Below, piece by piece: positions 3-25,857 of a stretch of 26,194 nt of DNA. A model generated the notes under the pieces. The model saw only the letters and a list, made by a program, of their open reading frames with translations. It searched no databases and was not told the origin of the DNA. Made by a program: the position numbers and the translations under genes. How positions within the stretch are numbered: position 1 is the stretch's first letter; each line of letters starts with the position of its first letter. This stretch comes from a virus, in IMG/VR virus record IMGVR_UViG_3300032676_000180, positions 1 to 26,194 of that record. One strand, written 5' to 3'.

Positions 3-1517
3 GTATTTTTATGCGAAGAAATATTTAATATTTTGAATGCTGAACTTGAAGGCGGATACCCTAAGAGTGAGTTAAAACTAATAGACATGACGCTCAGAAT
101 GTTTACCGACCCTGTTCTTGAGCTAGATAAGGAGATGCTAAATGAAGCCATTGTCGACGAACGCAGCAAGCGCGAAGCGATTCTTAAAAAAGTTAACATT
201 GATGAAACGGCGTTGGCTAGTAACGATCAGTTTGCTGGAGTCCTTGAGGCGCTCGGGGTATCCCCCCCAAAGAAAATTAGCAAAACGACTGGTAAAGAAG
301 CTTTTGCATTCGCTAAAACGGATGCCCTCTTCCAAGCATTGCTTAATTCAGACAACGAAGACGTATCACTTATTTGTGAAGCAAGGCTTAAAGTTAAGTC
401 GACGCTTGAACGAACGAGAGCGCAGAGGTTCATCGATATATCGCAACGAGGTACACTTCCTGTCCCGCTCAACTACTACGGAGCGCACACAGGTCGTTGG
501 TCGGCGAGCAAAGGCTCGGGCCTTAATTTACAAAACCTCAAGCGGGGGTCTTTTCTACGCAAAAGTATTCAAGCGCCGGAAGGCTATACCTTGGTGGTCT
601 GCGATCTCTCCCAAATCGAGCCCCGAGTACTTGCGTACCTTGCGGACTTTACGCCTCTTCTCACGATCTTTTCCTCCGGGCAGGATGCGTATGCCGCGTT
701 TGGCGCGCAGATGTTTGGCATTCCTACCCTTACCAAAGACACCCATCCCGATCTCCGCCAGTCAGCTAAATCGGCGCTTCTAGGTTGCGGCTATGGTATG
801 GGTTGGGCTAGCTTTGCGGCGCAGTTATTAACTGGCTTCCTTGGCGCTCCACCTACTATGTACGATAAGGCTTTTGCCAAACAGCTAGGTGTTACTGGTC
901 AGGATATGCAAGACTTTATTAGCTGGGAAAAAAACCTAGAGAAGATGAATGAGATACCTCATACATGCACTAAGGACGAGTTGCTTATTCATTGCGTTGC
1001 AGCAAAAAAGATCATTGATATTTACCGAGCCACATCGCAGGATGTTGTGGCCTTTTGGCAACTGTGTAACGACTCTATCCTTTCATGCTTGTCTAGGGGT
1101 AAGGAATATAAATATAAATGTATTACATTTAAGAAAGAAGCTATTGAACTACCGAGTGGCTTATCTATCCGCTACCCTAACCTTGAAGGACATGCAGACA
1201 ACAAGGGTAGAGTCCAGTGGCAGTATGGTGGAGACGCTAAAAACAAGCCTAAGAAACTGTACGGTGGTAAAATAGTAGAAAATATTGTGCAAGCAGTAGC
1301 ACGATGTGTCATGACGGATGGTATGTTACGGATTCAAAGGAGATATCCGTGCGTATTAACTGTGCATGATGAAGTTGTAGTACTAGTCCCCGAGTCAGAA
1401 GCTAAAGAAGCTGAAACTTGGGTATACGCGCAGATGGTCACAGAACCTAAATACATGTCAGGAATCCCTCTTGACGCTGAGACCGGCTGTGCCAAACGAT
1501 ACGGAGAAGCGAAGTGA
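3..1517 (+). CDS. DNA polymerase I-like, family A (5' end outside window)
   Basis: Template-directed DNA synthesis during phage replication. The reading frame is open through the left edge (codons from base 3), so the gene starts upstream. A TTG at 33 is only an internal Leu codon; the residues before it read as the end of a 3'-5' exonuclease domain. Numbering from that TTG: a GRWSASKGSGLNLQNL segment near 154-169, motif A (DLSQIEPR, 191-198) with the metal-binding Asp191, the O-helix motif B (R242, K246, Y254 in RQSAKSALLGCGYG), and motif C (HDE, 445-447). All polymerase catalytic motifs are therefore present. The residue matching E. coli Pol I Phe762 is Leu250. The stop overlaps the next start (GTGA). 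Family assignment is secure; the exonuclease domain is mostly outside the window. Confidence 0.95.
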   Translation, partial: VFLCEEIFNILNAELEGGYPKSELKLIDMTLRMFTDPVLELDKEMLNEAIVDERSKREAILKKVNIDETALASNDQFAGVLEALGVSPPKKISKTTGKEAFAFAKTDALFQALLNSDNEDVSLICEARLKVKSTLERTRAQRFIDISQRGTLPVPLNYYGAHTGRWSASKGSGLNLQNLKRGSFLRKSIQAPEGYTLVVCDLSQIEPRVLAYLADFTPLLTIFSSGQDAYAAFGAQMFGIPTLTKDTHPDLRQSAKSALLGCGYGMGWASFAAQLLTGFLGAPPTMYDKAFAKQLGVTGQDMQDFISWEKNLEKMNEIPHTCTKDELLIHCVAAKKIIDIYRATSQDVVAFWQLCNDSILSCLSRGKEYKYKCITFKKEAIELPSGLSIRYPNLEGHADNKGRVQWQYGGDAKNKPKKLYGGKIVENIVQAVARCVMTDGMLRIQRRYPCVLTVHDEVVVLVPESEAKEAETWVYAQMVTEPKYMSGIPLDAETGCAKRYGEAK

Positions 1518-1810
1518 AAAAACAATACGCAGTACCAAAAGAAATAAAGATAGGTAACCGCAAAATTAAAATTGCTGTGTATGACGATGTGTTTGTAGGT
1601 AGGGCTGAGTGTCGCGGGGCTTACTGTTTTACCGACCACACGATTTCCATTGCCAAGCAAGCGGCAACTCGCCAGCATAATACCTTATGGCATGAGATCA
1701 CCCACGCCATTCTCTACGATATGGGCGAGAGCAAACTTAACCACAACGAGAAATTTGTTAGTGGGTTTGCAGACCGCCTTGAACAAGCTATACGGACAGC
1801 GAAATTCTAA
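1514..1810 (+). CDS. Small HExxH metallopeptidase-like protein
   Basis: A 98-residue protein with a zinc-metallopeptidase signature, HEITH at residues 60-64 in the context LWHEITHAILYDMG. Glu79 in the following helix could be a third zinc ligand. The N-terminal part looks like short beta strands (IKIGNRKIKIAVYDD). Short phage proteins of this kind are usually annotated as ImmA/IrrE- or SprT-like peptidases; the substrate is unknown. The GTG start at 1514 overlaps the polymerase stop, so translation is probably coupled, and the stop TAA shares its last base with the ATG of the nuclease gene. Being set among replication genes suggests action on a DNA-bound or host regulatory protein, which is inference. 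Confidence 0.7.
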   Translation: MKKQYAVPKEIKIGNRKIKIAVYDDVFVGRAECRGAYCFTDHTISIAKQAATRQHNTLWHEITHAILYDMGESKLNHNEKFVSGFADRLEQAIRTAKF

Positions 1811-3812: not shown

Positions 3813-5375
3813 ATGCAAATTATAGAAAACAAAGCATTAGTATTTAGAACAAGAGACCCCGATAAGTACAGCATCATACCCCGCAGTAAAGTAGTAGGTG
3901 AACAAAACGGTGTGTATGAAATGGCAGTATTTTGGGGGTTAGACGAAACTAGAGTATTAAGAAATTTAGGGGTTAAAGATGTAGTATCCCCGATAACGGC
4001 TAGATATGATTGGCCTGGTCGCCATCGTCCTTTTTCGCACCAAATAGAAACAGCATCTTTCTTAACGCTACACCCCAAAGCATTTGTGTTCAATGATCCG
4101 GGTACGGGTAAAACCCTTAGCGCCTTATGGGCGGCTGACTATCTTATGCGATTAAAGAAAGTACGGCGGTGTTTAATTCTATGTCCGCTGTCTATTATGC
4201 ATGACGCTTGGATGAGTGGTATATCAAGTAGCATAATCCATAGATCCGCAATTGTGGCGCACCATGCTCAGGCTAGTCGACGTATAGAAATGGTACAAGG
4301 CGATTATGAGTTTGTAATAGTCAATTATGATGGGCTCAATCTTATTGCCGATGAAGTTGCGATGGACGGGCGGTTTGATTTGGTCATAGTAGATGAAGCA
4401 AACGCATACAAAAACTCTTCTACTAAACGGTGGAAATCGTTAAACAAAATCGTCCGTCCTGATTCATTACTGTGGATGATGACTGGTACCCCATCAGCGC
4501 AATCTCCCGTGGATGCGTATGGCTTGGCTCGGTTAGTTAATCCTTCTGGCGTCCCTAAGTTTGCTACTGCATGGCGCGATAAGGTTATGAAAAAACTAAC
4601 GCAGTTTAAATGGGTTCCAAAAAGCGGTGCGGCAGAGGCAGTATTTGATGCGCTTCAACCCGCCATTCGGTTTACCAAAGAAGAGTGCACAGACCTGCCA
4701 CCTGTGATTACCGTTACCCGTGAAATACCACTAACCCCACAGCAAGTCAAGTACTATAAGTTGCTTAAGGAAAGAATGGTTATGCAGGCATCAGGGGAAA
4801 CCATTACTGCGGTAAATGCCGCGGCAGGCGTATCAAAGCTTTTGCAGATATCAGCGGGCGCTGCTTATACAGACGCGCATGAAGTAGTGGAGTTTGATTG
4901 CGCGCCCCGCTTGAATGTTTTGCTAGAAGTGTTGGAAGAAACCAACAGAAAGGTTATTGTCTTTGCACCATTTAGGCACAGCATTGAAACGATCCACACC
5001 TATTTACTTAAGCACAATATAGGCTCTGAGGTTATTCATGGTGACGTATCCGTAAATAAACGCACGGATATTTTTAAACGGTTCCAAACTGAACCAAACC
5101 CGCGTATACTAGTTGTTCAGCCCCAATCAGCTTCTCATGGGGTGACGCTTACCGCCGCGGATACAGTAGTGTTTTACGGCCCCGTTATGTCTGTAGAAAC
5201 CTACCTACAGTGTATTGCTAGAGCAGATCGTATTGGTCAGACCAGTACAAATGTTACTGTGATACACTTGCAAGGTAGCGATATAGAAAAGCGGATGTTT
5301 GCTCAACTAGAGAAGCGTGTTGAAGGGCACGATATTCTGCTGAATTTGTATAAGGAGGAAGTTGGTTTAAATTAA
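3813..5375 (+). CDS. SNF2-type DEAD/DEAH-like helicase
   Basis: A 520-residue superfamily 2 ATPase with a complete motor. RecA domain 1 has a Q-motif-like HQIETASFL (76-84), Walker A DPGTGKT (95-101), Walker B VDEAN (193-197) and motif III TGTPS (224-228). RecA domain 2 starts near residue 350, with KVIVFAPF, VIHGDVS, a motif V region (SASHGVTLTAAD) and motif VI QCIARADRIGQ (466-476); the RADRIGQ form is diagnostic of SNF2-like proteins. No extra DNA-binding or nuclease domain is visible. Likely job: translocation on double-stranded DNA during replication or recombination, or displacement of bound host proteins. The gene abuts the preceding small ORF and is followed by an intergenic control region. 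Confidence 0.92.
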   Translation: MQIIENKALVFRTRDPDKYSIIPRSKVVGEQNGVYEMAVFWGLDETRVLRNLGVKDVVSPITARYDWPGRHRPFSHQIETASFLTLHPKAFVFNDPGTGKTLSALWAADYLMRLKKVRRCLILCPLSIMHDAWMSGISSSIIHRSAIVAHHAQASRRIEMVQGDYEFVIVNYDGLNLIADEVAMDGRFDLVIVDEANAYKNSSTKRWKSLNKIVRPDSLLWMMTGTPSAQSPVDAYGLARLVNPSGVPKFATAWRDKVMKKLTQFKWVPKSGAAEAVFDALQPAIRFTKEECTDLPPVITVTREIPLTPQQVKYYKLLKERMVMQASGETITAVNAAAGVSKLLQISAGAAYTDAHEVVEFDCAPRLNVLLEVLEETNRKVIVFAPFRHSIETIHTYLLKHNIGSEVIHGDVSVNKRTDIFKRFQTEPNPRILVVQPQSASHGVTLTAADTVVFYGPVMSVETYLQCIARADRIGQTSTNVTVIHLQGSDIEKRMFAQLEKRVEGHDILLNLYKEEVGLN

Positions 5376-10333: not shown

Positions 10334-10456
10334 TTGGCACTGGAGGAGGTAAAGGTAAACGGTTTAAAAGCCGCCCTTTACCACCAAGTTATTGCCAAAG
10401 CAGAAGTAGGCCGCAAAGATGGAAAGCTAGGAGTGTGGTTTACTCGCGTGCGCTAA
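10334..10456 (+). pseudogene. Coding-like stretch without convincing start, possible gene remnant
   Basis: An in-frame stretch of 40 codons (possible TTG start at 10334) after the terminator ends ALYHQVIAKAEVGRKDG then KLGVWFTRVR. The basic composition and codon choice look coding. A GGAGGAGG at 10342-10349 has no start codon at a usable distance, so I cannot support active translation. Its end overlaps the tail of the convergent gene by 17 bases. It may be the 3' remnant of a lost gene, or chance. Confidence 0.2.
10348..10382. repeat. Inverted repeat between the convergent modules
   Basis: GGTAAAGG (10348-10355) pairs with CCTTTACC (10375-10382). An inner CGG (10360-10362) can pair with CCG (10371-10373), giving an extended hairpin. 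No T-tract follows on either strand. It lies downstream of both convergent transcription units, so it may slow polymerase or protect 3' ends; this is inference. Confidence 0.4.
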
Positions 10457-13400
10457 GGAAGGCCTTAGAAAGTTCTATCCTAGCTTCTTTAATTTCGTCC
10501 AAAGCCGCACGTTTTTCAGCACCGTTAATACCTGTCATTGCCCTGATAGCGCGCTCTTGTTTAGACAGTTCACCCATTTGATGCCTGAAGTTGCCGGAGA
10601 AGCTGGCCATGCCTATTAAATCCGCTTGCTTAGTCATAAGGGCTTCAGCTTCTTCGTCTTGACCGCTTTCAACCAGGTTTTTATAAGAGTTATTAGCTTG
10701 AATTACGCTATCCATCTGCTCGTAGGCTTTATCAATTAGACCATTTGCATCTTTAGGCTGGAAGAATGCGCCAACAATTGGGGTTGTACTGCTTAGGGCG
10801 CCTCGACCTTCGGGTGCTTCGGCCCCACCTGCCACTGGGTTAGCTAACGACAGCAATGCTAAAGGCAGGGCGCCAGTATAGTTGCGGATTAGGTATTCCA
10901 TTTTGACTGGGGAGATATTAGTAGCCGCACCAATAGCCTTTATTGCCTCGGGGGTAGTAGCGTACGAACGTTGGCCCGGCGCTAGCTCTTGCAGGCGCTG
11001 GCTTTCAATTGGTTTGCCCGTAAAGAACGAATAGTTTGACCCCAACTCGATCATAGGTTTAACAGCAGTTGGTGTGAACGAAGGTAAGAAGTTATCGACA
11101 ACGTACTTAGATGTTTCAGCCGCGGCGTCGCCAAGCTTCTTATCCTTGAATGCAGTTGAGTAAAGCATCTCTGGAAGCATTTTAAATATACCGCCAACTT
11201 CAAAAGGAATTGGTACCTTTACTTTTTCATCAATGCCCGGAACTTTTATAAACCAGTTACCAATTCTTTCTGCAGACGTAGCGTTCTTGTAGTCTTCATC
11301 GTCGTAGTTAAGAGCGGTATATGCCATAGTAAACGCAGCCATCATTGCACCGCGCTGCCAAATTTTATTCTTAATGTCTAGCTTATCGTTAAGCGGCATC
11401 TTGCCAGCAAAAGCTTTGTACAAAACGTCAAGGCCTTGGATCTGGGCATTTAAGAATGGTACCATGTGGTTTAACAGATACAAACTTGGGGATGTGCCCT
11501 TCTTACTAAAGTTCATAGCTTCAAGAGAAGCCAAGGTGGCTTCCATATCAGAGGCCCCTTGCTTAATAAAACTGTTGTAAGAAGTAACACGAGACGACGC
11601 ATCGCCCATCATAGCCACGTGATCAAGGTACCCCATAGCTTTTTCCCAACCTGGTTTACCATCAATAATTTGCAACATGGCTTTTTGCATTGCGTCAGAA
11701 GCGTTACCCAGTACTTGACCGCCTAAGATACCGCGCCGCTTTAATAAAAGTTCGCCTTCATTTGTTCCTTTTAGCATGCTGCCTAACTGCTTTAAGTTAT
11801 CAACAATAGGAATTGAATTCGAGCCAGTTACAAACGCATTAGATAAAGAATCTCGCGCAATTTGGCGTACGGCATAAGCAGGGTTACGGGTTATAAATGA
11901 ACGCAATAATCTAGCTGGATAGCCAGCAACTTTAACAAGATTAGGAATCGAAGTCTGTACACCATCCATACCTTTTACAAGCAACTCAGAGGGTATGCCA
12001 ACAGAATCTGTATCCACAATAGCGTGGTAATCTTCGCCATTAATCTTAAAGTGAATTACGTCTGGCCCACTTGCGTCTTTGCCTTTATATATGCCTGACC
12101 CAAATTCTTTGCCACCACGAGCTGTTTTAATTTTTAGCAAGCCCAATTCTTTTAGGCTAAACGCCACATTTCTAGTAGCCAGATTGCGCAAAGACATATC
12201 TGTTAACATACGAGTGTTTTGCAACGCGCTAGTAAAGACGTCCATAATGGCGGTATCACCGCCAACCAGTTCATGTAAATAAGGTTGGTTTTTAATATTG
12301 CCAATATGAATAGGCTGGGCTCCACCCATTTCAAGCATAACGCTACCATCTTTTGCGGTACGGTAAAACGGCACGTAGTCATTCTCTTTAAGCAATCTTG
12401 CGGCTTCTTCTTTTGAGAATCTACCAGTCTGAACACCGAATTCTACCAAGCCGCGGTTGTAGTCGTTGTATATATTTGCTGCTTTTTCAAAAGCTGCTTT
12501 GGTTTTAGCATCAGAATTGATGCGTTTCATCACCTTATCAAGCATCTCTTGAGTAACATCTTTGCTAAAGTTCAACGTATTAAGACCGACTCTAGCCGCA
12601 CGCCGTCCAGCCAAATAAAACGTAAACAACTGATTAGCCGCATTAGCATCGCCAACGTCCGCCGCCTTTAAAGCTTGGGACACTTTTAACATGCTGGCGC
12701 CTTCTTTGGTTTCAATCAGGCGTTCTAATTTACCATCAGCACGTTTCTTTTCGATTATGCTCATTGGGCCGTGTGAAGCGGTCTGGGCTACCCAGTTAAT
12801 TCCCTGATCAAACATACGAAGGTAGTACATTAATTGCGTACCTTCAAGCGAGCTATTTAATTTTGCAGTTAACTTTTCAGCAACTTTTTCTGCTGGGGCA
12901 AACCTATCTATATAGCGAGTCCGTACCGCTAGGCGGTTTTCCTGAGACAGCATACCCCCAGTTTTAAGAATGTCACGTGGGGTTTTAAAGCCTACAGCAG
13001 CCGCATGTACTTTATCCCTAACTGTTTTGTTGGCCTGAACAATTTTGCCGACATCATCGCCGAGATCAGAGAACTTGCTGTTGTACTTAGCTTTACTACG
13101 GAATTGTATATCGCCGTTAGCCGTTTTGTACGCGCCCGGATTAACTTCTTTAAAATCATTACGAGCGTCACGCAGAATTTTGTAAATGTCAGAAGTATTT
13201 ATATCGAGGTTAAGGCCCATTTTCCGCAAGGCAGCACGAACTTCACCCACCAAAGCTTTAATAAAATCATTAGCTTTAGCTACAAAATCTTTGCTAGGGC
13301 GTTGTTCTTCTACGTGGGCAATCATTTCATGCACAGCTTCGGCTTTTGCTTCTTGTTCTGTTTTACCAGAATCAATCGCAGCTTGATAGGCCCCAGCCGC

Positions 13401-16400
13401 CTCGTCACCTACACCTAGTTTGTCAGCTAGTTTTTGAACACTACCTTCTTGTGCAGTAATTTTATTAACTAAGCGCTCCATACCTTCTTTGCCAAGCACT
13501 TGCGCAACGCCTAGGTGACCTGTAACTTCATGCGCAACTGTAGCCGCAACATCAGCAGGGGTAGCATGTGCATCTGCAACAATTACTACATTACCTTTTT
13601 CAGTAACAAAGCCTTTTGTTTTTTCTGGGTCGTATCCGCGATCGCGGATATATTGTTTCATGGTCTCAGGTAGAGTCTGAATAACTTTTACGTCTAAGCC
13701 TTTAGGTAGCTTAACTTTATCCACTACAGCTTGTGCTTCAGACTTAGCCATTTGAACACCGACGTTCTTACCTTCCCCAATACGAGGGTGAAATTCACCA
13801 CTCTCAAGCTCATCTGCCATAACCATATAGGCATCAACGCCCATATCGGCTTCTTTGGCCTCTTGCTTGAATAAAGCTTCAAGGTCTTTGGCTTTTTTTG
13901 TGGCTTCTTCGCTAATTTCTTTACGTAAGGCATCGCGCTTACGAGTCAGCACAGACTTCTCCGTTGGAGTCATCTCAGTGTGTTCAAGCTCGGTCTCTAT
14001 ACCAGCCAGTTCTTTGATCTTGCTACGCGCTTCTTTAGAAATTTTTAAGTTAGTTGTAGGTTTTGCTTTAACTTTCTCAGCTTCTATCTGGCGCACTGTT
14101 TTAGCAACGTTAGCATAAACTTCAGGCGTAATACCAGCTTCTTCAAACTTCCCTTCTTTCTCCATTGCTTTTTCAGCTTTAGAGGGTTTGTACCGTTTAG
14201 ACCCCTGCTCTTCTTGAGCTTGCCCAATAATCATACCAACACGACGGGCGTTTAAGATTGTGTCTATATTTTTAACTTGCTTTTCAAGAGCAGTTTGTTT
14301 TTCAGCAAGCTCAGCGCGTTCTGCTGCGGTTGCTTCTTTGTCTTGCAGGCTTAAACCGTAAATGCGATCGCGAATAGCCTTTAGCTTTTCTTTTAGTTTG
14401 CTATTAACTTCAGCAAGTCTTGTTTCGGTAATTTGGCCAACAGCTTTTTCAGCTGGAGATTTAGCCCGTTCAATATCCGCAATCTCTTGGTTATACTTTG
14501 CTTCGCCAATATCTTCGCTAACTTTCTTTTCAGCTTCAGTAAGTGGCTTTTTAATCTCGGTAATTTTTTTAGCTGGTGTTTTAGCAAACACCTGATCTTG
14601 CATTTTTTCTTCTAGGCCAATAATACGGTTTTGGGCCTTTCGGTACTCTGCTGTTTTTTCGTCAGCAGTAACCATCCAATTCATGATCTTGGCAATACGA
14701 GGGTCGACTTGGCTGTTTTTAAATTGTTCGTTTAATTTGGCGCGGGATTCTACGTATTTTTGGCGAGCTTCTTTTAAAGCCGCAAGTTGCTTAGCGTTTA
14801 AAGTTTTACTTTTTCGAGCATTCCACTCTTTAAAGTACTGCTTAGCAAAATTAAACGCAGTCTCAACTTTACGACCTTGATGTGGCAACGCAGCTTGTAG
14901 TTTCTCTGCGGGCTCAAAAGTTTGTTTTTTACCAGCTAAGTCAAGACCTGTTTGGCGCTCTGCTTCCGCCTGGCTTTCTTCAGTGCGTTCTTTAGCTGTT
15001 TTTTCAACTGCCGGTGTAGCTTTAGCCTTGTTCTTTTCAGCTTGCTTTTTAGTAAGAACTTCTTGGACCGCATAACGAGCCTTGGCTTCTGGAGTAAGTC
15101 GTTGAAGTTTACCGATTTCTTTTATAGGGGTATTAGTGTATTTATTTTTTAAACCTTCAGCAAACCTTTGAACGTCTTTGTATTCATCCCTATGGAAACC
15201 TGTTTCGATTTCTTGCTCTGTGGTTCTAAACCCAGCACGCCGTAATGCATTTGGCATAGAAGTTGTATCTATACCGTACTGATTTGCTAGTTGATCTACA
15301 GTTCCGTTTTCAACAGCGGCATCTACTTTAGCAATAGCAGCCTTAATTTCATTTGCTTTATTTTCTAGCGCCGCGTAAACAACAGGTGACGACTTCGCAG
15401 TATATCCTTGTTTTTTAAGCGGCTCCATTTTTGCTTCGACATCAGCTAAATCTGTCTTAAGAGGGTTTTTAAGCCGCTCAGCAAGAACCATTGCACGAGC
15501 TTTTTTACCCGTAGCACGCTGTATCTTGCCAGTCATTAAATCATCTAGCTGTCTTACGATATCAGCCTTTTGCTCTTCTGTAAGGCGGGGCATGTCTTTT
15601 GCTAAACGTTCGTAGTTAATGCGGCTAACTGTCGACTGGATATACTTGTCCAAAGAACCCCGCGCTTTTTCTGCAAGCGCAGCTAAAAAACCAGAAGCTT
15701 GTTTAGGGTTTGGACCACCAAAGAATTCGCCCTTACGCATACTATCTATAGTGTCAGTCAGATCAAGCAGGTGTACATCTTGTGCTATCTCGCTAACACG
15801 GCCGGACTCAACTGGGGTTTTTACGCCATCAGGAATAGCGTCAATCATTTTGCCGCGAGCATCTTCCATTGCTAAGCGGGCGTCTTCAATTTGTTTACCG
15901 AGCGCCGCTAAATCCCCACGAGCAGTATAGACCTCAGTACCGCGACCTTTTTCACCATAGCCCAGTTCGTTAGCTTTATTTAGTAGCTCATCATATGAGC
16001 TAGCCGCTTTAGTAAAGTTATCTTTTAAGACGTTAATTGCATTAACACGTTTAGTTTCTGCGGCTTTTTGAGCGGGAGTTAGTTCTGTCGGTACGTGTGT
16101 ATCAGGACGGGTATGTAAATCAACTAACTTTTGTGCAAGCAGGTCTGTGTACTCGTCAGATGTCATCTGCTCTCTATACTTACCTTTACTTACATACTCA
16201 CCCGTAGACTGGTCAATCTCTTGGTTGCTTTCATTGGCTGCCTGTTCTTGCTCAAGCGCTTCTTGCGCACGCTGTTCACGTGCTTTTTGTTCTTCTGCAA
16301 GGCGTGCTTGATATGCACGATACGGGGCCGTTGCATCGCCAGGGAACCTAGTTTGAATGTCTTTAATTTCTTGGGCAATTTTACCCACGCTTAATAGGTC

Positions 16401-17912
16401 GCCGTTGGCTTTGGCTTTTTCTAATTCTTTTTGTTTAGCCTTTACTTTTCGAGCGACTTCTTCAGCAGTAGCTGTTTCAACTTGAGAATACTTTATTGCC
16501 TCTAAGTGGTCAGTAAGGTCTTGGACTTTTGCTTGGTTTTGCTCCAAGCTAGTTTGAATTGGCTCGGCCGCTTCTGGGTCATCTTGAACTTTACCAAGTT
16601 GCTTTTGAAGGTCTTTATTTTCTTTGTTTAAAGAATTGATTTGTTCTTTAACTTTGTCAGGGTCTATTGCATCTAACGCAGCGTGGTGCTCTTCGGCTTG
16701 TTTACTTAAGTCCGCTAGTTTGTTTAAGTCTGTCTCAGTGCTAGCCTGCTTGCGTAACTCATCTAAATTAGCTTCCGCTGTCCGTCTTTGATTTGCAATA
16801 CCCACAGCTCTTTGTCTTAATTCTGTTTCTTTTTGGGCAGCATCAAGTTCTTCTGGGCCTGTAGGAAGGTCTGCATTTCCGCCCATTTGTTGTTCACGGG
16901 CAATTTCATTTCGCTGTTCTATACCTTTAGCTTCTTCGCCTTGAAGCATTTTAATTGCTTTGCCGGGTTGCCCAGCGTGCAAGAGGCCTAAGAATGGTGC
17001 GAGAATGCCTGCGGTTTTTGCCTGTTCAACATACTCTTTCATGGCCTCAGGGCTAAACATATCTTGCCCAAGCGCAGCATGCGTAGCAGCTGTATTACCA
17101 ACCATCATCGCTGTACCAGCGCCAGCGGCTTCAACTGTTCCAGCTAAAACGTTTTTTAGTTTGCCAGAGATACTAGCGCTAGCTTCTTCTGCAGTCAGTT
17201 GCCCAGTTAATACTTGTGGCAGTAGTGCTTTAGCTTCTTGGGTAGCAGTTTTTAAAGCAAAGCCTTTCATCGCACCGCCTACAAGTTCACCCCCTAAAGA
17301 GTCAATTGCTGTAGATACGATTGCAGGTAGAATTGCTTTACCATAATTGGCTTCTTGGCCAGCATTTTTTTGTGCCGCTACCATTTCACCCAGATGAATA
17401 GGCAAGTTAGTTCCAGCAAATGCGGCAGTTCCAGCGCCAATACCAGCAAGGGCAGCTCCCTCAGGAGCAAGGGCAGTAGCCGCAGCAGCGGCAGCAATAG
17501 GGGCACCGTAACGCCCAATCATATTACCTGCCATACCAGCAGCAGGTTCTAGTACATTTTTACTTAGTTCAGCGCCAGCTAGTGGCAACCAACCCTTGTT
17601 ACGGGCAGCTTCAATGTCTTGATCGTTAGTATCTTCGTGGGCAGCGGCTGCTTCTTGTTGGTACTGTTTACCTTTTTTAGCTAGTTCATCGGCGCCAACT
17701 AATGTGCCAAGGCCTTCCATAGTGGAACCAAGGCCGCTCTTTAAAGAAGAAGTAAATGCGCTTACTACGCCAGTCTTAGCTTCGTGGGGGACTTCTGGTG
17801 CTGGGGGAGTTTGGAAAGCTTTTAATTTTTGGAGTCCATCAAGCGACATCGCATCCAAATTGTTGGCGCGTAGGGCTTTTAAGTCGTCAAGCGACAGTTG
17901 ATCTAAATCCAT
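10440..17912 (-). CDS. Giant putative ejection protein: polyvalent protein with zinc metallopeptidase motif
   Basis: A 2490-residue protein, the last gene of the virion module. Residues 1-33 hold two imperfect copies of a Leu/Asp-rich motif (LSLDDLKALR ... MSLDGLQKLK). Residues about 125-222 are Ala/Gly-rich hydrophobic helices that could enter a membrane. About 325-610 and 690-1400 are long charged coiled coils. HEVTGH at 1461-1466 in VAATVAHEVTGHLG is a zinc-metallopeptidase motif; a second HExxH (HEMIAH, 1528-1532 plus Glu1535/1536) may supply the third ligand. The C-terminal third, including RNPAYAVRQIARD (2009-2021), resembles the large polyvalent protein associated domain LPD38. By position it corresponds to T7 gp16 and is probably ejected with the DNA; the protease would then act in the host. 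The start has no clear ribosome-binding site. Domain names are from memory. Confidence 0.75.
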   Translation of the reverse strand: MDLDQLSLDDLKALRANNLDAMSLDGLQKLKAFQTPPAPEVPHEAKTGVVSAFTSSLKSGLGSTMEGLGTLVGADELAKKGKQYQQEAAAAHEDTNDQDIEAARNKGWLPLAGAELSKNVLEPAAGMAGNMIGRYGAPIAAAAAATALAPEGAALAGIGAGTAAFAGTNLPIHLGEMVAAQKNAGQEANYGKAILPAIVSTAIDSLGGELVGGAMKGFALKTATQEAKALLPQVLTGQLTAEEASASISGKLKNVLAGTVEAAGAGTAMMVGNTAATHAALGQDMFSPEAMKEYVEQAKTAGILAPFLGLLHAGQPGKAIKMLQGEEAKGIEQRNEIAREQQMGGNADLPTGPEELDAAQKETELRQRAVGIANQRRTAEANLDELRKQASTETDLNKLADLSKQAEEHHAALDAIDPDKVKEQINSLNKENKDLQKQLGKVQDDPEAAEPIQTSLEQNQAKVQDLTDHLEAIKYSQVETATAEEVARKVKAKQKELEKAKANGDLLSVGKIAQEIKDIQTRFPGDATAPYRAYQARLAEEQKAREQRAQEALEQEQAANESNQEIDQSTGEYVSKGKYREQMTSDEYTDLLAQKLVDLHTRPDTHVPTELTPAQKAAETKRVNAINVLKDNFTKAASSYDELLNKANELGYGEKGRGTEVYTARGDLAALGKQIEDARLAMEDARGKMIDAIPDGVKTPVESGRVSEIAQDVHLLDLTDTIDSMRKGEFFGGPNPKQASGFLAALAEKARGSLDKYIQSTVSRINYERLAKDMPRLTEEQKADIVRQLDDLMTGKIQRATGKKARAMVLAERLKNPLKTDLADVEAKMEPLKKQGYTAKSSPVVYAALENKANEIKAAIAKVDAAVENGTVDQLANQYGIDTTSMPNALRRAGFRTTEQEIETGFHRDEYKDVQRFAEGLKNKYTNTPIKEIGKLQRLTPEAKARYAVQEVLTKKQAEKNKAKATPAVEKTAKERTEESQAEAERQTGLDLAGKKQTFEPAEKLQAALPHQGRKVETAFNFAKQYFKEWNARKSKTLNAKQLAALKEARQKYVESRAKLNEQFKNSQVDPRIAKIMNWMVTADEKTAEYRKAQNRIIGLEEKMQDQVFAKTPAKKITEIKKPLTEAEKKVSEDIGEAKYNQEIADIERAKSPAEKAVGQITETRLAEVNSKLKEKLKAIRDRIYGLSLQDKEATAAERAELAEKQTALEKQVKNIDTILNARRVGMIIGQAQEEQGSKRYKPSKAEKAMEKEGKFEEAGITPEVYANVAKTVRQIEAEKVKAKPTTNLKISKEARSKIKELAGIETELEHTEMTPTEKSVLTRKRDALRKEISEEATKKAKDLEALFKQEAKEADMGVDAYMVMADELESGEFHPRIGEGKNVGVQMAKSEAQAVVDKVKLPKGLDVKVIQTLPETMKQYIRDRGYDPEKTKGFVTEKGNVVIVADAHATPADVAATVAHEVTGHLGVAQVLGKEGMERLVNKITAQEGSVQKLADKLGVGDEAAGAYQAAIDSGKTEQEAKAEAVHEMIAHVEEQRPSKDFVAKANDFIKALVGEVRAALRKMGLNLDINTSDIYKILRDARNDFKEVNPGAYKTANGDIQFRSKAKYNSKFSDLGDDVGKIVQANKTVRDKVHAAAVGFKTPRDILKTGGMLSQENRLAVRTRYIDRFAPAEKVAEKLTAKLNSSLEGTQLMYYLRMFDQGINWVAQTASHGPMSIIEKKRADGKLERLIETKEGASMLKVSQALKAADVGDANAANQLFTFYLAGRRAARVGLNTLNFSKDVTQEMLDKVMKRINSDAKTKAAFEKAANIYNDYNRGLVEFGVQTGRFSKEEAARLLKENDYVPFYRTAKDGSVMLEMGGAQPIHIGNIKNQPYLHELVGGDTAIMDVFTSALQNTRMLTDMSLRNLATRNVAFSLKELGLLKIKTARGGKEFGSGIYKGKDASGPDVIHFKINGEDYHAIVDTDSVGIPSELLVKGMDGVQTSIPNLVKVAGYPARLLRSFITRNPAYAVRQIARDSLSNAFVTGSNSIPIVDNLKQLGSMLKGTNEGELLLKRRGILGGQVLGNASDAMQKAMLQIIDGKPGWEKAMGYLDHVAMMGDASSRVTSYNSFIKQGASDMEATLASLEAMNFSKKGTSPSLYLLNHMVPFLNAQIQGLDVLYKAFAGKMPLNDKLDIKNKIWQRGAMMAAFTMAYTALNYDDEDYKNATSAERIGNWFIKVPGIDEKVKVPIPFEVGGIFKMLPEMLYSTAFKDKKLGDAAAETSKYVVDNFLPSFTPTAVKPMIELGSNYSFFTGKPIESQRLQELAPGQRSYATTPEAIKAIGAATNISPVKMEYLIRNYTGALPLALLSLANPVAGGAEAPEGRGALSSTTPIVGAFFQPKDANGLIDKAYEQMDSVIQANNSYKNLVESGQDEEAEALMTKQADLIGMASFSGNFRHQMGELSKQERAIRAMTGINGAEKRAALDEIKEARIELSKAFLSARE

Positions 17913-17936: not shown

Positions 17937-20900
17937 TTAAGACTTCGACTTCTTAGCAATGGCCGCATCTATAGCGTCCATCGAGATCCCACTTCCTAGA
18001 GCACCAGTACCACTATCTTGGCCAGCCAAACTTCTAGCTTGACCACGCACGTCGTTAAAATACTGATTGCGCTCCATTGGACTCATTTTAGCAAACTTTT
18101 GCTGGAACAGCATATTTGCCATGTTTTTATCATGAATATCAGAGGCCGCTTTTAGAACCGCTGCATCAGTACGCTGTTGTATTATGTCTGCTTTTGAACC
18201 AACTGAGTTAGCCATAGCGCTTGCTTTAATCATGTCTGCGTCAGCCATACGGTTATGTACTGCTAGCATACCCATCTGCTGTGCTTTATCGTCAGCTTGT
18301 TTAGCGTAGTGGAATGCCAATTGCTCATCGCCATTTTGTTTAGCTTCTTGCGCCTTGGCCACGTTAAAATTAAAGTCTTGACGTTGTTTTTCAAGTTCAT
18401 TAATAGTCTTACGGCTTGCAGCCAATCCAGGTAGAGCGGCAATACCGCCTTCGCCAGTAGCTTTACCAAGAGGCCCGACGGTAGTAGCCATCTTAAAGCC
18501 CATATTCATTAAAAAGTCTGCAGTAGCAGAATTTTTTTCGCTGGCTACTTTCTTATCCATAGCTTCTTGGGTCATTGCCATATCAGCAAAACGATCAGGA
18601 GCTGGGGTAAATGTAGGCTGCGGAGCAGGTGCCGGAACTGGGGGCTGAGGTGATCTTGCAGTGGTAAGGTCTTTTATACCACCGGCAGGTGCGTTTGTAG
18701 GGCCAGCAGCAGGAAGTTTATTGATACCGGCATTATTTGATATGGCTTGATCTAGCTGAGACGGAGTAAACTTGCTTTGGTTTGCCTCGCTTAAAGCCGC
18801 AGGCGCAGTTGCAGCAGGAGCTGAAGCCGCATTTATATCAGCCTGAGTTAGTGTGCCTGATTGTGCCTTACTTACCATTTTTGATTGTGGGTCAGAATAC
18901 ATCCAGTCTTTAACTGCCTGTAATGTATCAGCAGGGTGAGTAATGGCATTCCAAATTTTCTTATCGGTATCCGATACAGGCGGGATATAAAGAGCATTGG
19001 GGTCAGTCTGAGTCTGGCTATTAGCAGCAGCGCCAACAGTCTCGTCTACAGTACCGTTTTTAAATGCAATAATACCGCCGCCAGCCATTGTCTTTAGCGT
19101 AGGCGCAGGTAACTGATCCAAGCCTTCTTCTTTGACTGGGTTTTGCGCCATCTGCTGTTGTTGGGCAGCAGGCTGCGCTTGAAGTTGCTGAGGTTCAGGT
19201 TGTTGGCTGTACATTTGCTGTAAAGCTGCTTGCCGTTTTGCCATGTCTTGTGCAAGCATTTGATCTTTAACAGTTGGCTGTTGAGCTTGCATACCAGCTT
19301 GCCGGCCTTGTGCCGCAGTCTGTAATTCTTTACGCTTTTGGTTTGCTAGCATAGCCGCAGTCTGTTCCATTGAAGGAGTCTTTGACTGTAGCTGCGCATC
19401 AATAGCACTTTGTGGGCCATTAACAAACGTATTAAACATTGCTTGCAACGACGTGCCCGCTAATGAACTACCGCTATCAGAAGTATCCGCTGGAGCAGAA
19501 CCGCCAGTAGCCAAGGATGCAATGCCGCCAGCCGCAAAGCCTTTAACCTTACCACCCTTCTTAGCAGCAAGTAATTTAGATGCGCCAATAGCAGCAGTAC
19601 CTAGACCAGCAGCCGTATTAACAAGACTTGGGGCAGCTTGATATTGAGTCTGAGTTTGGTTGGCAGTTGCGCCAGTACCTGTGTAAAGACCTTCCAAATT
19701 GTATGCCTGTTGCATTGGGTAGTTTTGCGTGTTGGCGTAGTTTTGGATAGCTTGATTGATAACTGCTTGTTGTTGGGCTTGTTGTTGAGCGCCCAGTGTG
19801 TTTTGTGTGCCAAGGATGCTAGTTTGCGCCGCCAGATTTTGTGTACCAATATTAGCCAAATTAGAGGCCTGTGTACCAGCACCAGCATAACCAGCTTGTT
19901 GTGCATTAACCCCTGAAAGCCCTACAGCTGCGCCTTGCATACCTAAAGAACCGGCTTGTTGTGCGCCGCTTAAACCTGTCTGTGCTCCTGAAATACCTAA
20001 CTGACCTGCTTGTTGTGCTCCTGTTAAACCAGATTGAATTCCAGCTAGACCTAATTGGCCTGCTTGTTGAACACCTTGTAGACCTTGCGCTGTACCTGCA
20101 AGACCTAAAGTTCCAGCTTGTTGAGCACCAGATAACCCTGCGTTTATACCGGATAAGCCTAATGTTCCAGCTTGTTGAGCACCCTGTAGTCCAGCATTTG
20201 CTCCTGCAATACCTAAGTTACCAGCTTGCTGTGCGCCAGTTAATCCTTGCGCTGTACCTTGCATACCCAAAGTACCTGCTTGTTGAGCACCTTGTAGACC
20301 TTGCGCTGTACCTGCAAGACCTAAAGTTCCAGCTTGCTGTGCTGCAGTTAAACCTTGACCATAGCCTGTTTGAGCTTGTGCATTACCTGTCAAAGCCGCT
20401 TGGTTAGCTGCATTCATTTGGCTTTGTGCGTTGTTAAACGCGGTGTTATATGCATTAGATGTAAGCTGGTTCTGCGCTAGCATTTCGTTCTGCTGATTTA
20501 AAGCAGTCATTACATCGCTACGGCCACCACCAAACGCATTAGCCTGAGTAGCAGCTCCTTGGTTTTGTGCTTGTAGCTGCCCAAACTGTTGTTGTTGAAG
20601 AGCTAGTTGTGGAGCCAAAGATGCATTTAAATAGGGGTTCATGTAGGAATACACAGAACCCGGACCTGTCGATGCGTTTTGTGATTGTTGGCCTAGGCTT
20701 GCTCCGATGGCTGCACCTTGTTGACCTTGGTTTACTGCACCTTGCCCATACATATTAGACATGCCAGCAGCTTGTTGGCCAGTATTGACCCCCATTTGCC
20801 CATACATATTAGACATGCCAGCAGCTTGTTGGCCAGTATTGACCCCCATTTGCCCATATTGGTTAGACGCATTAGCAGCTTGAGCGCCAGCAGCAGCGCC

Positions 20901-21674
20901 AGCAGCGCCGTATAGATTAGACATGCCAGCAGCTTGTTGGCCAGTATTGACCCCCATTTGCCCGTACATATTAGAGGCATTAGCAGCTTGAGCGCCAGTA
21001 TTGACCCCCATTTGCCCATATTGGTTAGACGCATTAGCAGCGTTAGCACCAGTCATTGCACCAGCTGCGCCGTACATATTAGAAAGAGCACCAGCTTGTT
21101 GACCAGCTTGAGAACCTTGCATTCCATACATACTAGATTGACCAGATGCGTTAGCGCCAGCTTGCGCTCCCATTGCACCATAACCAGCGGCTTGTCCAAC
21201 TGTATTTAAAGAGCCCATACCGGCGGCGCCAGCTAAACCAGTGGCTTGTCCGTATTGACTTGGCGTTTGTAATCCAGCAGCCGCGGAGTATGATTGGTTT
21301 TGCAAAGCTGAAGTTGGAGCTACCGCTGCTTGTGCAGCCTGCATTTGCCCGGGGCCAATACCAACACCATTTTGACCAAAAGCTGTGTATCCTAATTGCT
21401 GGCCTAAGTTAATAGATCCATCAGGGTTTGTAGTCTGGTTTGGAAATTGGTTGGCCATCTCTTGGCCGATGATTGCAGAAATGCCGGGTTGCGCCCAAGG
21501 AGAAATAGCAGATATTGTTTGGGTTTGACTAGTAGCAGAAGGGCTTGCGGCAGGACTCGGACCACCACCACCACCCCAACAAATAAAACCAGCTTTAGTC
21601 ATCAGACCATAAGTCAAATAAAATAACTGGTCACTAAGTTTACCGCTTCCGCAGTCAATTCCAAAAAGTTTCAT
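17937..21674 (-). CDS. Repeat-rich Ala/Gln/Gly virion protein, probable internal or tail protein
   Basis: A 1245-residue protein. The N-terminus contains CWGGGGGPSPAASPSA (32-47), and residues 59-160 are Gln/Gly rich. Tract 1 (164-325) has nine 18-residue units around a YG pair (Tyr165, 183, 201 ... 309). Residues 326-426 are unique (VYSYMNPYLNASLAPQL, FGGGRSDVMTALNQQ). Tract 2 (445-588) has eight 18-residue AQQAG units. A basic Gly-rich segment follows (KKGGKVKGFAAGGIASLATGG described by K705 to G725), then a Gln-rich region, AGGGIIAF (864-871), a Pro/Ala linker (about 1000-1070) and a helical C-terminus. No enzyme motif is visible. It lies between the gp13-like and giant proteins, the place of T7 gp14/gp15, so an ejection or internal-core role is likely. 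The ATG overlaps the previous stop (ATGA); the ribosome-binding site is weak. Confidence 0.65.
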   Translation of the reverse strand: MKLFGIDCGSGKLSDQLFYLTYGLMTKAGFICWGGGGGPSPAASPSATSQTQTISAISPWAQPGISAIIGQEMANQFPNQTTNPDGSINLGQQLGYTAFGQNGVGIGPGQMQAAQAAVAPTSALQNQSYSAAAGLQTPSQYGQATGLAGAAGMGSLNTVGQAAGYGAMGAQAGANASGQSSMYGMQGSQAGQQAGALSNMYGAAGAMTGANAANASNQYGQMGVNTGAQAANASNMYGQMGVNTGQQAAGMSNLYGAAGAAAGAQAANASNQYGQMGVNTGQQAAGMSNMYGQMGVNTGQQAAGMSNMYGQGAVNQGQQGAAIGASLGQQSQNASTGPGSVYSYMNPYLNASLAPQLALQQQQFGQLQAQNQGAATQANAFGGGRSDVMTALNQQNEMLAQNQLTSNAYNTAFNNAQSQMNAANQAALTGNAQAQTGYGQGLTAAQQAGTLGLAGTAQGLQGAQQAGTLGMQGTAQGLTGAQQAGNLGIAGANAGLQGAQQAGTLGLSGINAGLSGAQQAGTLGLAGTAQGLQGVQQAGQLGLAGIQSGLTGAQQAGQLGISGAQTGLSGAQQAGSLGMQGAAVGLSGVNAQQAGYAGAGTQASNLANIGTQNLAAQTSILGTQNTLGAQQQAQQQAVINQAIQNYANTQNYPMQQAYNLEGLYTGTGATANQTQTQYQAAPSLVNTAAGLGTAAIGASKLLAAKKGGKVKGFAAGGIASLATGGSAPADTSDSGSSLAGTSLQAMFNTFVNGPQSAIDAQLQSKTPSMEQTAAMLANQKRKELQTAAQGRQAGMQAQQPTVKDQMLAQDMAKRQAALQQMYSQQPEPQQLQAQPAAQQQQMAQNPVKEEGLDQLPAPTLKTMAGGGIIAFKNGTVDETVGAAANSQTQTDPNALYIPPVSDTDKKIWNAITHPADTLQAVKDWMYSDPQSKMVSKAQSGTLTQADINAASAPAATAPAALSEANQSKFTPSQLDQAISNNAGINKLPAAGPTNAPAGGIKDLTTARSPQPPVPAPAPQPTFTPAPDRFADMAMTQEAMDKKVASEKNSATADFLMNMGFKMATTVGPLGKATGEGGIAALPGLAASRKTINELEKQRQDFNFNVAKAQEAKQNGDEQLAFHYAKQADDKAQQMGMLAVHNRMADADMIKASAMANSVGSKADIIQQRTDAAVLKAASDIHDKNMANMLFQQKFAKMSPMERNQYFNDVRGQARSLAGQDSGTGALGSGISMDAIDAAIAKKSKS
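19911..20342 (-). repeat. Coding tandem repeat tract 2: eight units of 54 bases
   Basis: Eight 18-residue units starting at residues 445, 463, 481, 499, 517, 535, 553 and 571, all of the form (A/V)QQAG-x-LG-(x9). The consensus reads AQQAGTLGLAGTAQGLQG. A degenerate unit precedes (427-444) and another follows with a two-residue shift (AQQAG at 591). DNA copies are diverged, so this tract is older or under less recent exchange than tract 1. Confidence 0.9.
20700..21185 (-). repeat. Coding tandem repeat tract 1: nine units of 54 bases
   Basis: Nine 18-residue units with YG at residues 165, 183, 201, 219, 237, 255, 273, 291 and 309. Two adjacent units are identical at the DNA level (20751-20804 and 20805-20858), and a third copy matches one of them over 48 bases (20916-20963), indicating recent duplication. 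Units combine two kinds of first half (YGQMGVNTG or YGAAGAxxG) with two kinds of second half (QQAAGMSN or xxAANASN). Confidence 0.92.
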
Positions 21675-22084
21675 ATTGTTGTCTCTACAATTCTGTATCG
21701 TTCTTCAAATCCAAACCGACGCCATAAACGAGCAATTGATTCTCTAGCTGCCCCTTGTATTTTAGTCGCTCCAAACCCTTTTAATATTGCTTTTAGTTGC
21801 GCAAAAGTATCTTTGTTTGAAATTAACTTACCACCGATAAAAGTTATAAACCCAATGCGGTCATTTGGATAATTAATAAAACAGGCTGTTGCTGCACCGT
21901 GAATTACGCCTTCTTCATCAACCGCGATAATTAAAACCCATTGATTGCTAGCCAAATAAACTTTTACTTGGTCTATAGTATAGTCATCCCCGCCATACTG
22001 CATAGCATCTGCAATATATTTTTCAACCATAGGCCAAGCTTGCGCTACAAATCGCGGTTCAACGGGTCTTAACTGTAGTGTCAT
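21671..22084 (-). CDS. T7 gp13-like GNAT-fold protein
   Basis: A 137-residue protein starting MTLQLRPVEP. The layout is that of a GNAT fold: an N-terminal strand and helix (RFVAQAWPMVEKYIADAM), WVLIIAVDEEGVIHGAATACF as strands 2 to 4 (described by W50 to F70), FITFIGGKLI, then ATKIQGAARESIARLWRRFG and a final FEERYRIVE strand. The usual acetyl-CoA loop (R/Q-x-x-G-x-G/A) is not clearly visible, so catalysis is doubtful. T7 gp13 has about the same length, belongs to a GNAT-related family and is needed for internal core assembly; here the gene likewise lies just before the large internal proteins. It is joined by ATGA overlaps to the genes on both sides. Family is fairly secure; role is inferred. 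Confidence 0.7.
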   Translation of the reverse strand: MTLQLRPVEPRFVAQAWPMVEKYIADAMQYGGDDYTIDQVKVYLASNQWVLIIAVDEEGVIHGAATACFINYPNDRIGFITFIGGKLISNKDTFAQLKAILKGFGATKIQGAARESIARLWRRFGFEERYRIVETTI

Positions 22085-23856: not shown

Positions 23857-25857
23857 TCACCTACGTCCATCAGGCCGAACATCAAGTCTTGGATTGCCCA
23901 GTTGCCATTGAACCCCAAGCTGATCTGAAGAAACAACTAAAGCCATCTGGCGGCCTCTCATACGGCAGTATGCATACTGGGTAAACTGCTGCACATTATA
24001 AGTACTTTGAGTGCTTGAAAATGGGGCGCCTGTCCAAGAAACTTGTGGGTTATCATCCGATCCATAGGCTGCACCGGGGTTTTGACGTGGAAGCATAGTA
24101 AAGTTTACTGCTGGGTTTGCTGTGTAAGAACCGTTAAAACTCACATCCGGGATAAGACGCCACACAAAACCAAAGTTAGAACCATCTCCAATATCAAAAT
24201 CAGATGACTGAATGTATGCATAAATTGGGGAAGGCGGGTTAGTAGTGCCATCATCGACTCCATCTTCGTGGTAAATAAGACCGGGGTTAACGCCAGCATA
24301 CTGTGGGCTAACTGAATTATTTTGGTATCCGGCGGCTAAAGGATATGTACGTAAAGGGCTATCATACCAAGCAGTACGAGTCATAGAACCGTAGTACCAG
24401 ATTTGCTCTAAATAGTTGTAAATGACGTAGCTATCAATAACTGTAGAATTTTGTGAACAGTAGAACCACCAGACTTCGTTAAAGCCTTCATTCGTACCCG
24501 CAAAAAACTGCGCAGACTGAGAGCGATTTATGTTTTGAAATACATACTCGCGTAGCGTACATGGTAGCGTAGCTACTGTACCGGAATACATATAGAACTT
24601 ATCTTGCCCCATCCAATACACGACGTTATTAGCAACTGCAGTTACATTTGGTCCTATGATAGAGATATTGTCCATCATTAAAGTAAAACCAAACACATAG
24701 GGCGCGCCCAGATACTGCATAGAATACAGCGCAGAATCAGTCCAGACCACAATCTCTTGCCTATTTTGCTTAGCAGAAACTATTTGAGAGCCTTTACTTA
24801 ATATAAAATTACCGGCTTGGTTAGTTACACTTGGCTGCCAGACTAAAATATTTTCTTGATCTGACCAGCTTACAAGCATTGGGTTTTGTATTCCATTGCC
24901 GTATGTATCTGTACCAAAAGCAATAGTAAACCGTGAAGCGTCAGACACCATCACAAAATTAGCAATGGTCGGCGCATATGAATCAGTTAGCCAGTACTGA
25001 GTAGAATTTTGTGTGTTGGTATTGGTTTTTGATAGCTGCTGGGCTACGTCAAATACGTTAGGGTTAGTATCTACAACCCAGTAATATATAGGACCCCCAC
25101 GATAGTTAAATACTAGATTCTGGCCGTAGTTAGCTTGACTCCACAAACGCATTTGAGAGCCAACACCAGTGGAAGCTGGTAGGCCCCACCCTGTAGACGC
25201 CAGACCGGTAGTAGCTCCACCCCACCCACCTGCACCCCAACCAAGAGCTGTTGTATAGATGGCATTACCTGAAGTAATTTGGTAGGTTGCGGTTACTGCG
25301 CCGCCGCCGTTGCCTGAATCGCTTGAGTTAGCGGCTACTGATGCTGTTATGGAGTACTGGCTGGAGGATATGTATGTTATCTGATAGCCTTGGGTTTGAT
25401 TCAATAAAGCAGCAGTTATGGTACCGCCTAGGCTTGTAGCCCCACTAAATATTACCGTATCCCCAGTTTGTGCTCCATGTCCAGCTTGGGTAACAGTAAT
25501 TGTCTTTGACCCATTAGTAGCTGCAAAAGAAGCTGAAGGTGAAGATATAACAGTCCTAATCGGGGTTACATCATATAGGCTGCCGTTTGTACCATTCTGG
25601 ATATAAAACTTTTGATTTGTACCAATGCCGCAGTAGCTGTAGCCTGTTAAACCATTCCACAAAAGCAACGACCTGCATACACCGACATAAGGACCGCCTG
25701 TTGAAACTTGGCCAGAATCTTTAGTCCAGCCACCGATTTTTTCTACTTGGCCTGAACGGAATCGAATATTATTGCCTTGAAACCAACCACCTTCGTTGGC
25801 AAGAGTTGTGCCTTCCCGATTGACCCCCGGCCTGAATTGCAATTTTTGGATGGGCAT
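23857..25857 (-). CDS. Tail nozzle-like structural protein (T7 gp12 / P22 gp10 type)
   Basis: A 666-residue protein starting MPIQKLQFRPGVNREGTTLA, then EGGWFQGNNIRFRSGQVEKI and GGW, the conserved start of a family of podovirus tail proteins. It is Tyr, Trp, Asn and Gly rich throughout and beta-rich, suggesting a beta-propeller-like fold as in the T7 gp12 nozzle. Residues about 104-193 (FAATNGSKTITVTQAGHGAQ, TGDTVIFSGA, YQITYISSSQYSITA) form an apparent extra beta domain of a type repeated in many phage proteins. The start follows the TAA of the lysozyme gene with no gap. No enzyme motif is seen. Structural assignment is good; the exact tail position is inferred from context. Confidence 0.65.
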   Translation of the reverse strand: MPIQKLQFRPGVNREGTTLANEGGWFQGNNIRFRSGQVEKIGGWTKDSGQVSTGGPYVGVCRSLLLWNGLTGYSYCGIGTNQKFYIQNGTNGSLYDVTPIRTVISSPSASFAATNGSKTITVTQAGHGAQTGDTVIFSGATSLGGTITAALLNQTQGYQITYISSSQYSITASVAANSSDSGNGGGAVTATYQITSGNAIYTTALGWGAGGWGGATTGLASTGWGLPASTGVGSQMRLWSQANYGQNLVFNYRGGPIYYWVVDTNPNVFDVAQQLSKTNTNTQNSTQYWLTDSYAPTIANFVMVSDASRFTIAFGTDTYGNGIQNPMLVSWSDQENILVWQPSVTNQAGNFILSKGSQIVSAKQNRQEIVVWTDSALYSMQYLGAPYVFGFTLMMDNISIIGPNVTAVANNVVYWMGQDKFYMYSGTVATLPCTLREYVFQNINRSQSAQFFAGTNEGFNEVWWFYCSQNSTVIDSYVIYNYLEQIWYYGSMTRTAWYDSPLRTYPLAAGYQNNSVSPQYAGVNPGLIYHEDGVDDGTTNPPSPIYAYIQSSDFDIGDGSNFGFVWRLIPDVSFNGSYTANPAVNFTMLPRQNPGAAYGSDDNPQVSWTGAPFSSTQSTYNVQQFTQYAYCRMRGRQMALVVSSDQLGVQWQLGNPRLDVRPDGRR

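Follow-up and report, generated by a model that had tools for sequence, protein, structure and literature searches.

A recurrent place for a probable zincin domain in the LPD38-type giant proteins of phages

A virus contig of 26,194 bases, IMG/VR record IMGVR_UViG_3300032676_000180 (here called the window), encodes on its minus strand a giant protein of 2490 residues. Its open reading frame (ORF) runs from 17912 to 10440, with exactly the ends given in an initial annotation of this DNA, and the plus-strand frame over 10440-17912 is full of stops. The giant itself is of a known kind. It carries a probable metallopeptidase domain of the zincin type in front of a conserved C-terminal carrier with an LPD38 domain, and in many giants with this type of carrier a zincin motif lies at nearly the same distance from the C-terminus. 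The features considered are listed below, those of the giant first and two neighbouring genes last.

10440..17912, minus strand: LPD38-type giant, whole ORF, 2490 residues
17820..17912, minus strand: N-terminal tag MDLDQLSLDDLKAL..., residues 1-31, candidate packaging signal (suggested by analogy with P1 DarB)
16893..17819, minus strand: Ala/Gly-rich segment, residues 32-340
13761..16892, minus strand: charged, partly coiled-coil-like helical region, residues 341-1384, presumed cargo or spacer
13113..13760, minus strand: probable zincin domain, residues 1385-1600 (AlphaFold2 (AF2) model, VIA zincin matches, conservation)
13515..13532, minus strand: HEVTGH (HExxxH), residues 1461-1466, with predicted metal ligands H1461 and H1466 and predicted general base E1462
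13314..13331, minus strand: HEMIAH, residues 1528-1533, with E1529 as predicted third metal ligand
10443..12992, minus strand: conserved, mostly helical C-terminal carrier, residues 1641-2490 (identity, dN/dS)
10809..11300, minus strand: LPD38 (PF18857), residues 2205-2368 (Pfam, E 1.7e-34)
17937..21674, minus strand: Gly/Ala/Gln repeat protein of 1245 residues adjoining the giant (54-bp, 18-residue tandem units)
23857..25857, minus strand: neighbouring virion structural protein, phrog_3287 (E 7.8e-62)

The C-terminal region that the initial annotation had called polyvalent-type is indeed LPD38, which scores 120 bits against a cut-off of 27 and is the only Pfam domain above its cut-off. The carrier that contains it is 83-86% identical to those of close relatives. 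Zincin and LPD38 are the only domains recognised in the giant (Pfam, PHROGs), and no enzyme was recognised in the presumed cargo in either library. A Calici_MSP match over residues 1450-1524 (Pfam, E 0.013) was below cut-off and was taken as chance. The AF2 model of the carrier had a predicted local distance difference test (pLDDT) score of 47, too low to be used for a fold search, and profile searches of PDB sequences with carrier or zincin returned only unrelated weak matches, or none.

Further upstream, hydrophobic segments and two long coiled coils had been proposed. The N-terminal region is Ala/Gly-rich, with a highest 19-residue Kyte-Doolittle mean of 1.42, and has no clear membrane spans. 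Heptad periodicity is significant over residues 421-510, 601-690, 781-870 and 1141-1230 and not in the stretches between them, which bears out the coiled coils in part. The giant of L010 (L010:1245-9503) has an insertion of ~300 residues relative to the window protein, around residues 928-969 of the middle region, in which a Pfam domain was looked for and none was found.

The HEVTGH motif reported earlier is present at residues 1461-1466 (window 13532-13515) and conserved in relatives. With three residues between Glu and the second His, it is HExxxH and not the canonical HExxH. IMG/VR holds nine close relatives of the giant (61-73% identity) and one other record nearly identical to the window; HE(V/I)TGH and AVHEMIAH are kept in all nine. 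More distant giants have HELVGH or HEVVGH, the Glu of HEMIAH (E1529) being invariant, and the combination of HExxxH with a downstream Glu is conserved out to Achromobacter phage CF418P1 and Bacteroides phage BF1-TP2. We rejected HEMIAH as a second active site: L018 and CF418P1 have Arg, and BF1-TP2 has Glu, where its first His stands. Invariance in that region of the distant alignment is limited to the Glu, an Ala and another Glu further on.

Iyer et al. (2017; PMC5512222) describe an HEXXXH set of polyvalent metallopeptidases (MPTases) whose third ligand is a Glu in the second conserved C-terminal helix, and such a Glu is present in the window giant. The AF2 model of residues 1385-1640, built from 8 sequences and with a pLDDT of ~65-89 over its first 200 residues, has the order helix-strand-helix-strand-strand-helix(HExxxH)-...-helix(Glu), which fits that expected of a zincin; model residues 68-83 form the helix of HExxxH, and 135-152 that of E1529. 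Searched against the predicted viral structures of BFVD, the model found other phage proteins, among them several of polyvalent type, at E values from 6.6e-7 to 7.2e-4. The top VIA-align match was 3e11, a solved zincin-like metalloprotease (Z 6.2 over 71 residues, 2.4 A), followed by the zincin-like Mycobacterium tuberculosis regulator 6cyy (5.7), anthrax lethal factor (4.5), Wss1 (4.3) and PPEP-2 (4.2). All these scores are weak taken alone, and Z values of ~6 or less fall in the range of chance arrangements. This counts against the assignment, as do two negative results: a Foldseek search of the PDB with the zincin model gave nothing below E 0.39, and no peptidase profile in Pfam or PHROGs matched the zincin region, or anything in residues 1350-1610, an outcome that the initial annotation had itself named as refuting its peptidase. 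The zincin family is missing from both libraries. The peptidase assignment therefore draws on sequence conservation, on the structure model and on what the literature describes, and we conclude that residues 1385-1600 are probably a zincin of the HExxxH kind of Iyer et al. (2017), which is the best reading rather than a proved one. The metallopeptidase of the initial annotation is thus retained as a probable zincin, and not as a match to a Pfam or PHROG peptidase.

The distance from motif to C-terminus was measured in 51 giants with an LPD38-type carrier. Two IMG/VR scans supplied 43 of them (longer than 1150 residues and dereplicated at 70% identity, shorter ones being dropped), and the others were the window giant and eight other relatives, isolated phages included. 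Motifs were recognised solely by the pattern HE..H or HE...H, so single cases may be chance. In 25 of the 51 giants (16 HExxxH, 9 HExxH) the motif lies 990-1065 residues from the C-terminus, against a mean of 0.05 and a maximum of 1 in 300 trials with shuffled sequences. The standard deviation of its position is 23 residues when counted from the C-terminus and 692 when counted from the N-terminus. If the range is widened to 990-1460 residues, 38 of the 51 have a motif (shuffled mean 0.57, maximum 3); in CF418P1 the extra length between zincin and C-terminus includes an LPD3 domain.

What lies upstream of this slot varies: an SF2 helicase, a methyltransferase (MTase) and GNAT in Vibrio phage 1.232.O, InPase and LPD3 in CF418P1, and ddrB-ParB and an MTase in Aeromonas phage phiARM81mr. 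The zincin subtype changes too, while its place stays constant. The slot of L020 (41% identity in the carrier) is taken by a canonical HExxH subtype, HELTH with ...ADEFLAEL, that of Thalassomonas phage BA3 and Vibrio phage 1.211.A by HEMAHYLD...EGFAEF, and that of the window by HEVTGH. Escherichia phage PTXU04 has HEIIVH, 1036 residues from the C-terminus of its giant. Because the slot is fixed while protein length, cargo and subtype vary, the zincin belongs with the C-terminal carrier. As far as the main text of Iyer et al. was searched, this fixed spacing is not stated there and is a new regularity. The giant of Vibrio phage 1.205.O (L045:4905-14297) has two zincin-like motifs; HEILAH, at 2092, is in the slot, and HELIH precedes it at 1059. 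Carriers without a zincin motif occur in Pelagibacter phage HTVC010P, L012, L013 and Bacillus phage Palmer (L049:4325-9361); in HTVC010P (L051:7758-9272) the carrier is a separate ORF of 504 residues.

Zincin and carrier are both under purifying selection. In comparisons of the giant with those of L007, L010 and L003, the ratio of nonsynonymous to synonymous substitution rates (dN/dS) was ~0.06-0.08 in the carrier, 0.10-0.13 in the zincin, 0.14-0.21 in the middle region and 0.4-0.5 in the N-terminal 340 residues, the fastest evolving part of the giant; these values are rough, as synonymous sites are near saturation. They bear on the proposal of the initial annotation that a protease is delivered into the host. 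As a host-directed effector, the zincin would cleave a protein of the host, such as one used in defence, early in infection, an alternative that Iyer et al. (2017) list for polyvalent MPTases. The cargo of the window giant has no other recognised enzyme, and the zincin subtype varies between phages, as that of an effector under host-driven selection might. However, the place of the zincin is tied to the carrier, 990-1065 residues from the C-terminus, whatever the cargo upstream. The recognised effector-type domains vary in kind and sit upstream, and the zincin evolves more slowly than the regions in front of it. We regard a host effector as unlikely, and the proposal is not supported in the form in which it was made.

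Since the zincin slot is fixed relative to the carrier, we favour a carrier-linked role such as processing or release. The window giant would then be a phage-type polyvalent protein whose zincin serves delivery or processing, acting on the giant itself or on its neighbours, and we consider this reading rather likely to be correct. Autoprocessing was proposed for the polyvalent MPTase domain class by Iyer et al. (2017). The computed layout of the giant is an N-terminal tag, an Ala/Gly-rich segment, variable helical cargo, the probable HExxxH/Glu zincin and the LPD38 carrier, the last two forming one constant C-terminal module of ~1000-1060 residues in front of which phages exchange cargo. It would be packed in the capsid, possibly by way of its exchangeable tag, thread out through the tail at infection and refold in the host. 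The zincin, if it binds zinc and cleaves as predicted, would separate cargo from carrier after ejection, or act during head maturation.

That the window giant is present in the virion and is ejected is suggested by better-known proteins. The giant gp69 of podovirus JC1 (4515 residues, LPD38 at 4195-4401) is the last of its virion module and was found in CsCl-purified JC1 virions with 51 unique peptides by mass spectrometry (PMC9144972). In the DarB-like giants JC1 gp69 and Bcep22 gp75 (Lessievirus), LPD38 lies ~115 residues from the C-terminus, compared with 122 in the window giant, and the gene is likewise the last large one of the virion module. JC1 gp69, which was compared by description, differs in its length and in having transglycosylase-like, MTase, helicase and LPD3 domains. 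The N-terminal tag is swapped among relatives, MAIYRVEGPDGS standing in its place in L005 and L011 and MAYFLPMPDGRR in L018. P1 DarB is targeted to the capsid by its first 30 residues (PMC9024508), and by analogy the tag may be a packaging signal here too. The giants of BA3, 1.205.O, PTXU04, CF418P1 and Palmer are encoded at or near the end of a run of virion genes, and lysis genes adjoin some of them.

The virion RNA polymerase (vRNAP, gp50) of phage N4 is also a packaged and ejected giant, in which a zincin-like C1 is followed by the large helical C-terminal domain C2 (PMC12633501; C1-C2 structure PDB 9pnq). Its HExxH lies 1272 residues from the C-terminus. It differs in having the canonical motif and an RNA polymerase (RNAP) as cargo, and in a C-terminal domain without detectable sequence homology to the window carrier (hhalign of the carrier against C2, E 0.4, and 0.11 with a deeper profile), although a remote relationship may exist. 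Several points weigh against the processing role that we favour, and the N4 protein supplies two of them. Purified recombinant vRNAP shows no degradation (PMC12633501) and, according to Iyer et al. (2017), it is packaged uncleaved, so the zincin may not cleave in cis. Moreover, the zincin is not obligatory, for no such motif is present at all in 5 of the 51 carriers, and in 13 there is none within 990-1460 residues of the C-terminus; and because the carriers are homologous, the slot statistic partly reflects common descent.

Some of these points would also fit a zincin fold with a purely structural role, in folding, packaging or membrane docking of the carrier, and without a protease role. In N4, the C-terminal domain to which C1 belongs is an allosteric inhibitor of the RNAP, no degradation of the vRNAP being seen (PMC12633501), and the MPTase region is needed for encapsidation though the protein is packaged uncleaved (Iyer et al., 2017); some carriers do without the motif. 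However, distant phages and the different subtypes retain the metal-binding His/Glu pattern, for which a purely structural domain would have no need, and we judge a purely structural role to be quite improbable.

The initial annotation had likened the giant to T7 gp16, with a metallopeptidase in place of the transglycosylase. The likeness holds for position only, last in the virion block, and homology to gp16 was not found. In profile comparisons the carrier showed no detectable homology to T7 gp16 (E 0.24; 0.073 with a deeper profile), although a remote one may exist, or to the Corkvirinae proteins at the gp16 position (E 0.41 and 0.26), and none was found to a crassvirus giant. No Pfam or PHROG match to the N-terminal lytic transglycosylase of gp16 was found in the window giant. 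An RNAP domain was found neither in the giant nor elsewhere in the window, and no T7-type single-subunit RNAP in the window or in four relatives, all of them records that may be incomplete; T7 and N4, the positive controls of that search, were both detected. Relatives have an SU10-type portal and adaptor, and the gene of 137 residues at 21671-22084, labelled gp13-like earlier, gave E 0.21 over 5 columns against the T7 gp13 profile, which does not support the label.

For a true gp16 homologue, an ejectosome ring protein in which the transglycosylase has been replaced, there remain the place of the gene at the end of the virion block and a match of the L020 zincin to Corkvirinae proteins that occupy the T7 gp16 position and share homology with the tetrameric ejection protein of PhiM1 (gp48), whose structure is solved (PDB 8vb2). 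These proteins (PhiM1 gp48, PPWS1 gp46) resemble the window giant in position and in having an HExxH domain akin to the zincin of L020; they differ in size (1230-1263 residues), in forming a ring-shaped ejectosome and in the rest of the chain, for which no homology to the LPD38 carrier was found. With no profile homology found for the carrier, no T7-type RNAP found, an SU10-type portal and adaptor in relatives and no support for a gp13 neighbour, we hold true homology to gp16 to be very improbable. Nor is a metallopeptidase-like domain at this position a novelty: N4 vRNAP has one (Iyer et al., 2017; PMC12633501) and the Corkvirinae proteins carry their HExxH domain. The N4-type virion RNA polymerase family is a further match of the L020 zincin (phrog_2206 positions 2095-2252, E 3.5e-4).

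Residues Asp268-Asp528 of PhiM1 gp48 were called endolysin/exotransglycosidase-like by its authors (PMC11440229). This domain contains LLHEAAHAKT and, further on, HEFISQLF (8vb2 chain A, ~380-460). It may be a zincin, because it is homologous to the domain of PPWS1 gp46 (L041:3035-6727) that the L020 zincin matches.

The polyvalent proteins with HEXXXH of Iyer et al. (2017) are the closest description of the window giant. They too are giant multidomain phage proteins with LPD38, HExxxH and a downstream Glu, and with predicted injection, a difference being that the cargo of the window giant is without a recognised enzyme. The giants of Vibrio phages 1.232.O and D274, CF418P1 and phiARM81mr likewise have an HExxxH zincin followed by the LPD38 carrier, with other cargo and ~25% identity in the carrier. 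Among public records, the LPD38 giant OQ817832.1 (CF418P1) is named "putative portal", which looks mislabelled, and OQ594354.1 (MinM2) is named "RelA/SpoT", which may name one domain.

Around the giant, gene order agrees with its earlier description as the last gene of the virion module. The minus-strand block consists of a GH19-type endolysin fragment, the phrog_3287 protein, proteins of 157, 427 and 137 residues, the 1245-residue repeat protein and the giant. The repeat-rich character of the adjoining protein is confirmed by its tandem units, and it has no family match in Pfam or PHROGs. On the left, plus-strand genes are replicative (DNA polymerase A, PDDEXK nuclease, dATP/dGTP diphosphohydrolase, SNF2-type helicase and DUF927, whose product also has a weak PrimPol match), and the two blocks converge at ~10.3-10.4 kb. 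A SprT-like protein of 98 residues (1514-1810, plus strand; Pfam E 2e-4, below cut-off), a small HExxH protein, is encoded between the DNA polymerase and PDDEXK nuclease genes. A search of bacterial genome contigs for a close carrier found no relative, so no host is suggested for the phage.

No domain is commoner in polyvalent proteins than the zincin-like one, for which self-processing and attack on the host have stood side by side as possible roles since 2017. The fixed spacing between zincin and carrier predicts a carrier-linked role such as cargo release, and the protease should not be counted as cargo of such giants. The slot also offers a rule for annotating LPD38 giants, many of which are now mislabelled. 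More tentatively, and as a possibility on which we would not insist, LPD38 giants may share a self-contained zincin and carrier delivery module of ~1000 residues, with which unrelated phages would eject exchangeable cargo that the zincin cuts free. Because the slot is kept while at least three zincin subtypes have been exchanged in it, cleavage there would be part of how short-tailed phages in general deliver proteins.

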